Positions 14,420 to 62,418 of a DNA stretch of 64,000 nt are shown here, piece by piece (the stretch's first letter is position 1; every line of letters begins with the position of its first letter). The stretch is taken from positions 1 to 64,000 of the forward strand of contig QHSU01000074.1 in the NCBI GenBank assembly GCA_003220535.1. Direction: 5' to 3'. This stretch comes from Candidatus Rokuibacteriota bacterium. GTDB taxonomy: Bacteria > Methylomirabilota > Methylomirabilia > Rokubacteriales > CSP1-6. A program made the position numbers and the translations under genes. The notes below the pieces were generated by a model, which worked only from the letters and a program-made list of their open reading frames with translations, was not told where the DNA came from and did not search any database.

Positions 14420-19436
<5,017 letters not shown>

Positions 19437-56687: not shown

Positions 56688-57365
56688 ATGACCCTCGGAC
56701 GGATTCTGGTCGTCGATGATGAGGCTCCGGTGCGCGAGGTCTTGACCGAGTACTTCGTCACCGAGGGGTACGCGGTCGAAGAGGCGACGAACGGCGCCGA
56801 GGCGCTCACCGCGATCCGCGGCGGGCGCGCGGACCTCGTTCTCCTCGACGTACGCATGCCCGGGCTCGATGGCGTCCAGGTGCTTCGGCGGATCCGTGAG
56901 CTCGACCAGAACGTTCCCGTCATCATGGTGACCGCAAACGAGGACGTCGGCCTCGCCAAGGAGACGCTCAAGCTCGGCGCCTTCGACTACGTCGCGAAAC
57001 CCTTCGACTTCGACTATCTCGATCGGGCGGTGGCCGCCGGGCTCGCGCGTGTGGGTGAGAAGATCGCCGGAGGCCCGGCCACGGACGACAACCCATGGAA
57101 GCGTCTGGCCCACGCCGTGTTCCGGGTCGCGCGCGCCATGCAGCAGACAGCGCGGACATCCACCGGCGAACGGATGGAGACGGCGGCCCTCGCCGCGGCA
57201 CGCAACGCGGCTGCCGGCAGGGGCACAGCCGCCGGCGAGCATCTCGCCGAGATCCAGCTGCTCCTCGACGTCGCCGCCGAGTTCGGTGATTTCCCGGCCG
57301 CAGACCGGGCGCTCGTGGAGTCATCGCTTGAAGCGGCGCGCCGGTCGATCCCCGTCGCCGGCTGA
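56688..57365 (+). CDS. Response regulator with an N-terminal receiver domain
   Basis: A 225-residue regulator. The receiver (residues 1-120) has the acidic pair DD10-11, phospho-acceptor D54 in LLDVRMPG, and lysine K104 in VAKPF. The remaining 100 residues are helical and Ala-rich with no DNA-binding helix-turn-helix, so output is probably by protein contact. It overlaps or abuts the GAF histidine kinase gene and is its natural partner. Confidence 0.88.
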   Translation: MTLGRILVVDDEAPVREVLTEYFVTEGYAVEEATNGAEALTAIRGGRADLVLLDVRMPGLDGVQVLRRIRELDQNVPVIMVTANEDVGLAKETLKLGAFDYVAKPFDFDYLDRAVAAGLARVGEKIAGGPATDDNPWKRLAHAVFRVARAMQQTARTSTGERMETAALAAARNAAAGRGTAAGEHLAEIQLLLDVAAEFGDFPAADRALVESSLEAARRSIPVAG

Positions 57366-58656
57366 CCGACGGCGCCGGTCGCGCGGCCGGCTCGACGTCG
57401 AGCCGCACCTCAAGATCCTCCACACGGTGGCGGAGTCCGTCAGCCGCACGCTCGACGTCGAGGAAGTGCTGCGCACCGCCGTCGGTGCGCTCACGCGCGT
57501 CACCGGTCACGAGATCGCGAGCCTCCATCTCCTGTCCGATGACGCCAGGACGCTCGAGCTGCGGGGCGACCGCGGCATGTCCGCGCGCCTGCGTGAGGTG
57601 AACCGGGTACTGCCCACGGGCGAGGGGCTCATCGGCCGTGTGGCCGTCACGGGCAAGACGGTCCGGATCGACCGGAACTACGAGGACCCGAACGTGCTGC
57701 CGAGCGCCAAGGCCGCCGTCCGCCGCGAGCAGATCCGCGGGTTCGTCTGCGTGGCGATCCACTGCCGCGGGCGGATCCTCGGCACGCTCTCGCTCGGCCG
57801 CAAGACGCTCGCCCCGTTCGACCGGCACGAGCTGGCCCTCGTCGAGGCGACCGCCTACCAGATCGGCCTGGCCCTCGACAACGCACGGCTCTACTCCGAA
57901 TCGCTGCGCCAGCTCGACGAGATCAAGCGCACCCACACGCAGCTGATCCACGCCGAGAAGCAGCTGATCCACTCCGAGAAGCTGTCGGCCGTCGGCGAGC
58001 TCGCCTCGGGGGTGGCGCACGAGATCAACAACCCGCTGACGACCATCCTCGGCCAGACCCATCTCCTGCTGACGCACCCGGAGACGAGCTCCCACGTGCG
58101 CGACCGCCTGGGGATCGTCGCCGAGGAGGCGGGGCGCGCGGCGCGTATCGTCCAGAACCTCCTGCTGTTCGCGCGTCACTACACGCCCGAGCGACGGCCG
58201 TGCTCGATCGCGGACCAGGCACGCCGGGTGCTCGAGCTGAAGGGGTACCAGCTCCAGCAGGATAACATCCGCGTGGTCACCGACTTCGCCTCGTGCCCGT
58301 TCGTGTGGGCCGACGAGAACCAGCTCCAGCAGGTGCTGCTCAACCTCGTCCAGAACGCGCACCAGGCGATGGCCAAGCACCCGGCGCATCGCGTGCTGAC
58401 GGTGCGGGTCTGGCCGTCGGATCGACACGCCTGCGTCGAGGTGCGCGACTCGGGCCCCGGGATGGCGCCCGAGGTGCTGCCGAGGGTCTTCGACCCGTTC
58501 TTCACTACGAAGCCGCCCGGCGAGGGGAGCGGTCTCGGGCTGTCCGTCTCCTACGGCATCGTCACCGAGCTGGGAGGCATTCTCCGGGCCGAGAACTGCA
58601 GCGACGGGGGGGCCTCGTTCATCGTCGAGCTGCCGCTCGGGGAGCCCGCCTCCTGA
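57328..58656 (+). CDS. GAF-domain sensor histidine kinase
   Basis: A 442-residue soluble kinase if begun at TTG 57328. A GAF domain (LKILHTVAESVSRTLDVEEVL to EATAYQIGLALDNARLY) precedes a coiled linker. The HisKA H-box is SGVAHEINNPLTTILGQ, and the HATPase boxes are ENQLQQVLLNLVQNA, RDSGPGMAPE and GEGSGLGLSVSYGI. There is no transmembrane segment, so it should sense an intracellular signal. The start is uncertain: TTG 57328 overlaps the regulator gene, and GTG 57427 would trim the GAF edge. Confidence 0.87.
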   Translation: MKRRAGRSPSPADRRRRSRGRLDVEPHLKILHTVAESVSRTLDVEEVLRTAVGALTRVTGHEIASLHLLSDDARTLELRGDRGMSARLREVNRVLPTGEGLIGRVAVTGKTVRIDRNYEDPNVLPSAKAAVRREQIRGFVCVAIHCRGRILGTLSLGRKTLAPFDRHELALVEATAYQIGLALDNARLYSESLRQLDEIKRTHTQLIHAEKQLIHSEKLSAVGELASGVAHEINNPLTTILGQTHLLLTHPETSSHVRDRLGIVAEEAGRAARIVQNLLLFARHYTPERRPCSIADQARRVLELKGYQLQQDNIRVVTDFASCPFVWADENQLQQVLLNLVQNAHQAMAKHPAHRVLTVRVWPSDRHACVEVRDSGPGMAPEVLPRVFDPFFTTKPPGEGSGLGLSVSYGIVTELGGILRAENCSDGGASFIVELPLGEPAS

Positions 58657-59690
58657 AGATCCGGCTGGCTCCGGCGCTCCTGCTGGCGCTGCTCACGACC
58701 AGTTGCGCCGGAGTCGGAGCTCCCGTGCCGGGTGCCCCGGCCCACCATCGCGAGCGCGGGTTCGCGAACGTCAATCCGTCGCACGAGGCCGCGGGCGGCT
58801 GGACGCGCTTCACGTTCTTCATCTCGCGCATCTGGGCCAGCACGTTCAGCCCACGGACCGCGAACCTCCCGTCGATCGCGAGCGACCTTGCGGCGATTCT
58901 GGACAATCGCGGCGCCGCGACCGTGACCTGGGTCGGTCATGCCACGCTGCTCATCCAGCTCGACGGCGTCAACATCCTGACCGATCCGAACTGGTCGAAC
59001 CGAGCGAGCCCGGTGTCGTTCGCCGGCCCGCGGCGCGTGTCGCCCCCGGGCCTCAAGTTCGAGGATCTGCCTCCCATCCACGTCGTCCTGATCTCGCACG
59101 ACCATTACGACCACCTGGACGAGGCGACCGTCAAACGCCTCGTCGCCGAGCACCGCCCCCGATTCCTCGTCCCGTTACGGCTCACGCAATGGTTCACCGA
59201 CCTCGGCATCACCGACGTCGACGAGCTCGACTGGTGGGACCGCCGCGCGCTCCGCGGGCTCACGTTCACGTGCGTGCCGGCCCAGCACTTCTCGGGCCGC
59301 ACGCTCTGGGATCGCAACCGTCGCCTCTGGGGCGGCTGGGTCGTCGCCGGCCGAGCCAAACGCGCGTACTTCGCCGGGGACACGGGCTACTTCGACGGGT
59401 TCAAGGAGATCGGCAAGCGGCTCGGCCCGTTCGATCTCGCCGCGATACCGATCGGCGCGTACGTGCCGGCGGTCATCATGAAGGCCAGCCACACAACGCC
59501 GGAGGAGGCGCTCCGGGCCTTCGCCGACGTCCGTGGTCAACGATTCATCCCGATTCACTGGGGGACGTTCGATCTCGCCGAGGAACCGCCAGACGAGCCT
59601 CCTCAGCGGCTCGTCGCCGAAACGCGTCGTCTGCGGCTGGATCTCGACCGCATCTGGGTTCTCAAGCACGGCGAGACCCGCTTCTGGTGA
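58653..59690 (+). CDS. Metallo-beta-lactamase-fold lipoprotein, CTG start
   Basis: A 345-residue MBL-fold protein of the UlaG/NAPE-PLD-like type: TWVGHATLLIQLDGVNILTDP, zinc motif SHDHYDHLD, then AQHFSGRTLWDRN, YFAGDTGYFDGF and FIPIHWGTFDL. The first 18 codons from CTG 58653 read M-KIRLAPALLLALLTTSC with CTG as Met, a perfect lipoprotein signal peptide and lipobox. That CTG overlaps the kinase stop as CTGA, and no canonical start lies nearby. A lipid or phosphodiester substrate at the membrane is likely by family. Confidence 0.85.
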   Translation: MKIRLAPALLLALLTTSCAGVGAPVPGAPAHHRERGFANVNPSHEAAGGWTRFTFFISRIWASTFSPRTANLPSIASDLAAILDNRGAATVTWVGHATLLIQLDGVNILTDPNWSNRASPVSFAGPRRVSPPGLKFEDLPPIHVVLISHDHYDHLDEATVKRLVAEHRPRFLVPLRLTQWFTDLGITDVDELDWWDRRALRGLTFTCVPAQHFSGRTLWDRNRRLWGGWVVAGRAKRAYFAGDTGYFDGFKEIGKRLGPFDLAAIPIGAYVPAVIMKASHTTPEEALRAFADVRGQRFIPIHWGTFDLAEEPPDEPPQRLVAETRRLRLDLDRIWVLKHGETRFW

Positions 59691-59692
59691 GG

Positions 59693-59838
59693 CGCTGGGG
59701 TCGGGGAGGGCGGGGCAGGGTCCCCGGCTCGACCCGACTGCAGCTCTGCGTGGCGGCGGAATCACTTGGCCTGACGCGAAGCAATCCTGACTACACGGGT
59801 CGAGCCGTGGCCCTGCCCCGCCCTCCCCGACCCCAGCG
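59693..59838. repeat. Large inverted-repeat element (copy C)
   Basis: Arms of 43 and 42 bp (59693-59735 and 59797-59838) are reverse complements except for one single-base indel and one mismatch, around a 61-bp centre. The inner arm ends carry the same GGTCCC-n-TCGACC core as copies A and B. It begins two bases after the MBL stop and lies in the convergent gap before rlmI. I see no gene in 59691-59894. Confidence 0.95.
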
Positions 59839-61615: not shown

Positions 61616-62418
61616 TACTTCTTGCGCAGGACGACGACCATGATGATGGGGTGTCGGGAGCGCTCGAGGACCTGCTGGGGCTTGAAGCCGAAGAACCACT
61701 GGACGAACTCGAACTCGCCGGCCAGCTCGACCAGAGCCTTGAGCTCCTGCGGGAAGACCATGCGCGACAGGTGGGTCTGACGATAGAGCCGGCGCGTGCC
61801 GTTCTCGACGGCCTCGAGCGTCATTCGCTCGCGGAAGACCTGGCTCACCGGGTCGACGTCGTTCAGCGCCGAGAACGAGGCTCGGACGATCAGCCGCCCG
61901 CGCCGCTTGGACCACGACCAGCTCCGCGCCGGGTTCGTCCACGAGGACGCCATGTAGCGGTCGAAGACGTAGAGCCCGCCCCGCCGCAGACAGCGAGCCA
62001 CCGCCTTCAGGTGGGCCAGGAGCTGATCGTTCGTCAGGAGATGGCCCTGCGAGTCCTGCATGCAGATCGCCGCATCGACCGGGCGCCCGAGGCGGAAGTT
62101 CGTCATGTCGCCGACGACGAGCTCGCCCTGGTAGCCCTTGGCCGTGAGTCGCTCCCGCAGGAAGTGGATGTTCCGCGGCGACAGATCGAGCCCCGACATC
62201 TGGTAGCCCCGGTCGGCGAGCCGCATCAGGTGGGGGCCTGTGCCGCACGCGATGTCGACGACCCGGCGGACGGCTCGTCGTGAAAAGCGCCTGAAGCAGT
62301 GCTCGAGGAAGTCGACCTCGCCCTTGCGGTTGAGGTCGAAGGCGATCTCGTAGAACCGCGGCGCGCTGTACTCGCGGATGCGGCTCTTCTCCTGAAGCTT
62401 CAGCGGAGCTCTCCCCAC
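61615..62418 (-). CDS. Class I SAM-dependent methyltransferase
   Basis: A 267-residue methyltransferase: SAPRFYEIAFDLNRKGEVDFLEHCF before motif I (VVDIACGTGPHLMRLADRG), the acidic strand MSGLDLSP, and AAICMQDSQGHLLTNDQL. I chose GTG 62418; a CTG at 62403 overlaps the agmatinase stop as CTGA, like the CTG starts elsewhere in this window, and gives a tidy MKLQEKSRIREY N-terminus, so that start is a real alternative. The substrate is unknown. Confidence 0.8.
   Translation of the reverse strand: MGRAPLKLQEKSRIREYSAPRFYEIAFDLNRKGEVDFLEHCFRRFSRRAVRRVVDIACGTGPHLMRLADRGYQMSGLDLSPRNIHFLRERLTAKGYQGELVVGDMTNFRLGRPVDAAICMQDSQGHLLTNDQLLAHLKAVARCLRRGGLYVFDRYMASSWTNPARSWSWSKRRGRLIVRASFSALNDVDPVSQVFRERMTLEAVENGTRRLYRQTHLSRMVFPQELKALVELAGEFEFVQWFFGFKPQQVLERSRHPIIMVVVLRKK

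Follow-up and report, generated by a model that had tools for sequence, protein, structure and literature searches.

Introduction

CTG start codons are thought to be almost absent in bacteria, partly because the common gene finders disallow them. One such start has been proven in the RepFIB rep gene of F-like plasmids, for which the protein's N-terminus was sequenced and the CTG was mutated to CTC; output from this CTG is low, and annotations usually misplace the start at a GTG further downstream (PMC11983097). Figures cited in that article put CTG at about ten times weaker than TTG as a start in Escherichia coli, and list it as the annotated start of 20 genes among nearly 85,000 (PMC11983097). 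In a mycobacterial reporter selection, CUG was not enriched as a start (PMC4633059), and an initiator tRNA variant with changed G-C pairs has been found to discriminate less against CUG (PMC11497404). As for gene arrangement, the overlap of four nucleotides between a stop and the following start is the commonest coupled organization in prokaryotes, and is described in the text available to us as ATGA or GTGA (PMC10666635). No report of conserved CTGA overlaps acting as starts was found in the open-licence literature.

The window analysed here is a stretch of 64,000 nucleotides, located on contig C40 of G000, a metagenome-assembled genome of 7.18 Mb from Candidatus Rokuibacteriota. An earlier note on this DNA had claimed that a gene for a lipoprotein starts in it at CTG 58653, in a CTGA overlap with the stop codon of a kinase gene. 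The comparison with orthologues presented below makes it very probable that the lipoprotein gene does start at this CTG.

Results

Gene organization and reading frame

The junction lies in an apparent operon, the features of which are as follows.

56688-57365, + strand: response regulator with a receiver domain (PF00072, E 1.6e-33), which opens the apparent operon.
57328-58656, + strand: GAF-HisKA-HATPase sensor kinase (from Pfam matches, orthologue N-termini and the coding boundary), with the stop codon TGA at 58654-58656.
58627-58653, + strand: last nine kinase codons, with low synonymous variation within the genus, interpreted as the region where translation of the next gene is initiated.
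58639-58644, + strand: GGGGAG, Shine-Dalgarno-like, 8 nt 5' of the CTG and invariant in 9/9 genomes of the genus.
58653-58655, + strand: probable CTG start codon, inside CTGA with the kinase TGA (from the reading of the junction and from orthologues).
58653-58703, + strand: predicted lipoprotein signal peptide of 17 aa, MKIRLAPALLLALLTTS (charged n-region, hydrophobic core, lipobox pattern; LspA in the genome).
58704-58706, + strand: lipobox Cys (+1 of the predicted mature lipoprotein), followed by Ala; Cys in 48/48 orthologues.
58653-59690, + strand: predicted MBL-fold hydrolase lipoprotein, NAPE-PLD-like, 345 aa (PF12706, E 2.3e-44; PDB 4qn9, E 2.9e-76).
59097-59114, + strand: HxHxDH metal-binding motif (HDHYDH), in 48/48 orthologues.

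For the kinase, the probable start is TTG 57328, giving an overlap of around 38 nt with the end of the response regulator gene; many relatives keep TTG or GTG at this site, and the coding boundary of the kinase offers no other canonical start codon. Directly 3' of the hydrolase gene, the window contains a perfect 28-nt inverted repeat (59693-59838), very G-rich and with its arms 90 nt apart, which was absent from every other locus fetched.

At the other end of the kinase, its TGA (58654-58656) overlaps the CTG (58653-58655) as had been claimed, in the four-nucleotide geometry of two co-directional genes with the second in the -1 frame. The frame from the CTG reads L(M)KIRLAPALLLALLTTSC, with the signal peptide followed directly by the Cys at codon 18, and there is no in-frame ATG, GTG or TTG between the two. 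The next canonical start downstream in frame is a GTG 24 codons past the CTG and thus beyond the Cys, so that, in agreement with the earlier note, any later canonical start would lose the signal. The statement that no ATG, GTG or TTG lies close upstream in frame also held, the nearest being located 116 codons before the CTG, deep inside the kinase. When a gene finder based on codon usage and blind to start codons was applied, the boundary of the coding region was placed at 58644, within three codons of the CTG; no usable ATG, GTG or TTG is present there, and the CTG is.

These data bear on a start at a canonical codon inside the kinase, which would give the protein a long N-terminal extension of at least 116 codons. 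The frame is indeed open for more than 100 codons upstream of the CTG, but open wrong frames are ordinary at a G+C content of about 69%, the variation 5' of the CTG follows the kinase frame, the coding boundary is at 58644, and the extension would bury the signal peptide; we consider such a start extremely improbable.

Lipoprotein signal and hydrolase domain

The sequence encoded from the CTG has the composition expected of a lipoprotein signal, that is, an n-region with K and R, a hydrophobic core and a lipobox with the Cys at position 18, within the 15-35 range used as criterion. It had previously been called an ideal signal, a description that holds for the broader lipobox pattern and less so in detail, since LTTSC has Thr instead of Leu at -3. 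The strict PROSITE-type pattern was failed by 7/26 signal peptides preceded by CTG versus 5/22 of those with canonical starts, and the lengths were alike, with a median of 18 residues in the CTG orthologues and similar values in the others. A gene for LspA (signal peptidase II) is present in the same genome (PF01252, E 1.2e-35, G000:C107).

Beyond the signal, the protein shows a full-domain match and the metal-binding motif of NAPE-PLD-like MBL-fold proteins, its best solved relative being NAPE-PLD (PDB 4qn9), with a match that spans residues 89-344. The downstream gene would encode a lipoprotein with a hydrolase domain related to this family. A paralogue of the hydrolase, L082 (G000:C111:194034-194987), is 54% identical and apparently lacks the lipobox Cys.

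Comparison of orthologues

A search of 99 relatives gave matches in 74, and the junction could be read in the right orientation for 48 orthologues, all of which keep the lipobox Cys. In 30 of these 48, the kinase gene ends in a TGA that overlaps the frame of the lipoprotein, in -1 phase and 15-27 codons 5' of the Cys. The base preceding the overlapping TGA makes it CTGA in 26 cases, GTGA in three, TTGA in one and ATGA in none. The 26 CTGA cases span eight genera and include 9/9 genomes of the genus to which the window belongs, which sustains the claim that the CTG is the start of the lipoprotein gene. The comparison with orthologues that had been suggested as a check thus yields eight genera with CTG at the homologous junction and the Cys 15-27 codons on; in the exceptions, the codon at that overlap is GTG or TTG (4/30) or, where overlap is missing, the start is an ordinary one. 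The latter group consists of 18 orthologues in which the kinase is missing, apart or in another phase, and in 18/18 of them an ordinary ATG, GTG or TTG is found 16-30 codons before the Cys.

The absence of any ATG, GTG or TTG 14-30 codons before the Cys characterized 23/26 CTGA orthologues versus 0/22 of the others (Fisher p 8e-11, with rows that are not phylogenetically independent). In a maximum-likelihood tree, at least eight changes between CTG and canonical starts were counted, and well-supported branches make three of these unavoidable; within one clade, for instance, two loci (L098 and L106) have CTG and a third (L102) has GTG at the same site. The CTG site is thus conserved, and where it is replaced in relatives it is by other start codons only. 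This exchange, together with the canonical starts found elsewhere, is what a start codon, rather than an untranslated stretch, should show.

An untranslated stretch is what would follow if the gene began at the GTG located 24 codons 3' of the CTG and encoded a cytoplasmic MBL-fold enzyme. This GTG is the nearest canonical in-frame start and a possible choice of a gene finder limited to ATG, GTG and TTG, and paralogues apparently devoid of a lipobox do exist (L082 and L007). However, the Cys and the hydrophobic stretch upstream of it are kept in 48/48 orthologues, including the 18 with an ordinary start before the signal, and the GTG itself is missing from several CTGA orthologues (e.g. L091, L094 and L095), so that we regard this start as very unlikely.

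The orthologues also argue against a -1 frameshift at the kinase stop, by which kinase, lipoprotein signal and hydrolase would be fused with no need for a start codon. The two frames abut in the -1 relation and CTGA is conserved, as a frameshift would have it, but there is no conserved slippery heptamer and the last codons vary freely (TCC, GCC, ACC, ATC, AGC, CGC, GAC, GGC). Moreover, where the hydrolase gene is apart from the kinase or the kinase is missing, it has its own start and the same type of signal (18/18), and a cleavable lipoprotein signal within a fusion would make little sense. A frameshift appears even less probable to us than a start at the downstream GTG.

Finally, a sequencing or assembly error, with G or A as the true base at 58653, could be considered in a window that comes from a metagenome-assembled genome. 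The same CTG nevertheless recurs in 26 genomes, among which the flanking codons differ, and these independent assemblies exclude, for practical purposes, an ATG or GTG at this position concealed by a faulty base call; the chance left to such an error is negligible.

The identity of the base is in itself less telling. In a first sample of G000, C precedes TGA in 107/201 other genes ending in TGA and is the commonest neutral state, and 4/85 variable columns of the kinase are as rich in C as the CTGA site. Given this background, conservation of the C is by itself only weakly unusual, and the case for selection on the C of CTGA alone is no more than suggestive.

Putative initiation region

Synonymous variation within the genus drops to 0.033 in the last nine kinase codons, compared with a mean of 0.259 over nine-codon windows, and values as low as this were found in 3/358 such windows. 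Upstream of the CTG the variation has the pattern of the kinase frame; past it, the pattern is that of the lipoprotein frame, and this is clearest once the Cys is reached. GGGGAG, 8 nt from the CTG, is a Shine-Dalgarno-like sequence at a fitting distance, as in a reinitiation pair; matches of at least 4 bases at a fitting distance were detected in 21/30 junctions versus 11/36 control CTGs, which were other CTGs in the same phase within the kinases (p 0.003). This element is predicted to be mostly paired, in a hairpin of the mRNA, and such pairing would favour initiation coupled to a passing ribosome. An Rfam search around the junction gave no match.

Other CTGA overlaps and the initiator tRNA

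In 978 kb of the genome, 68 unambiguous four-nucleotide overlaps, with no other start nearby, were identified: 33 ATGA, 29 GTGA, three TTGA and three CTGA. Most CTGA junctions have an ATG, GTG or TTG within a few codons. A genome-wide switch to CTG starts was rejected, as only 3/68 of the unambiguous overlaps begin with CTG. These three correspond to the lipoprotein gene, to glnE (16360) and to a gene at G000:C98:31207. In glnE, the CTG at window position 16360 overlaps the TGA of an upstream PII-like gene; all the same-genus loci that were examined keep this CTGA, as do several other genera, and genus g5 has GTGA instead. The lipoprotein case had been presented as independent of glnE, and the two junctions do belong to separate gene pairs, 42 kb apart, glnE having a conserved CTGA of its own. 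In the third case the protein begins LITDVPGIRVGH, and we take its N-terminus (ITDVPGIRVGH) to resemble that of a P1-type peptidase.

Also in the window, at 62402 on the minus strand, a methyltransferase-like gene overlaps the stop of an agmatinase/arginase-like gene as CTGA; it was discarded as a clean CTG case, given a possible GTG start five codons upstream. Taken as a whole, CTG starts are rare in this genome yet look real and lasting.

Control genomes gave no CTG among the unambiguous overlaps of Stenotrophomonas (6) or of a member of the same class (10), numbers that are too small to show Rokubacteria to be special. A Blastococcus control gave no valid result, since the home-made gene finder apparently settled on wrong frames at 75% G+C.

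The initiator tRNA (L216, TTGGGCTCATAACCCAA) has the C1-A72 mismatch, a CAU anticodon and three normal G-C pairs. An altered initiator tRNA favouring CUG was discarded on account of the normal G-C pairs and anticodon, so that the tolerance of CUG is not explained by the tRNA.

Discussion

The reading that we favour, with a probability of around 0.87, is that of a genuine, weak, conserved CTG start, reached by reinitiation after the kinase and resulting in low, kinase-coupled output of the lipoprotein. Ribosomes would end synthesis of the sensor kinase at the overlapping TGA, remain on the mRNA with the aid of GGGGAG, and reinitiate in the -1 frame at the CTG with ordinary fMet-tRNA; the lipoprotein, made at a low level coupled to that of the kinase, would then be lipidated and cleaved before Cys18. 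We infer that translation begins at the CTG, and the anatomy of the junction is what leads us to propose reinitiation and a low level of expression. Against a CTG start, CUG is poor in E. coli, C is common before TGA, the Shine-Dalgarno-like element lies in a predicted hairpin, and the initiator tRNA is normal, with no special tolerance of CUG visible.

It is conceivable, though we are inclined to doubt it, that Rokubacteria actively keep CTG at a few four-nucleotide overlaps as a selected weak start. Such selection might, just as tentatively, extend from the lipoprotein gene and glnE to perhaps some twenty others per genome, fixing a low ratio of downstream to upstream product. In its favour, a single synonymous mutation would turn the CTG into GTG or ATG and such changes have rarely been taken, this near absence of ATG and GTG at the junction being the sole contrast that favours selection over mere tolerance of CTG.

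If the gene starts at the CTG, the export signal of the lipoprotein would escape any gene finder that accepts only the usual start codons, which suggests that automatic annotation strips such signals from proteins with CTG starts of this kind. What the orthologues point to is a natural CTG start that has been retained in at least eight genera and gives way to GTG or TTG at the same base, in a genome whose initiator tRNA is ordinary. This suggests that overlap with a stop codon can be enough to make even a very weak start workable, and that such starts persist over long evolutionary times; the collection of orthologues offers a ready comparative set for reinitiation at CUG.

With respect to known systems, the encoded protein resembles the NAPE-PLD and UlaG-like MBL-fold hydrolases (PF12706; 4qn9) in its full-length domain and conserved HxHxDH, and differs from them in being a predicted bacterial lipoprotein with an export signal. 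The junction shares with the ATGA and GTGA reinitiation overlaps the TGA overlap, the -1 frame, the co-directional genes and a Shine-Dalgarno-like sequence inside the upstream gene; here, however, the start would be CTG, while the consulted portion of the source names only ATGA and GTGA (PMC10666635). RepFIB rep is similar in its CTG with a GGAGG-type Shine-Dalgarno sequence, in the mis-annotation at a downstream GTG and in a weak start thought to limit expression; it differs in being a plasmid gene with a proven start, for which an overlap with an upstream stop is not described in the part of the article available (PMC11983097), whereas the CTG in the window is deduced by comparing sequences. 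Single CTG starts are thus already known, as in RepFIB rep, and it is the phylogenetically conserved CTGA start/stop overlap that is new.
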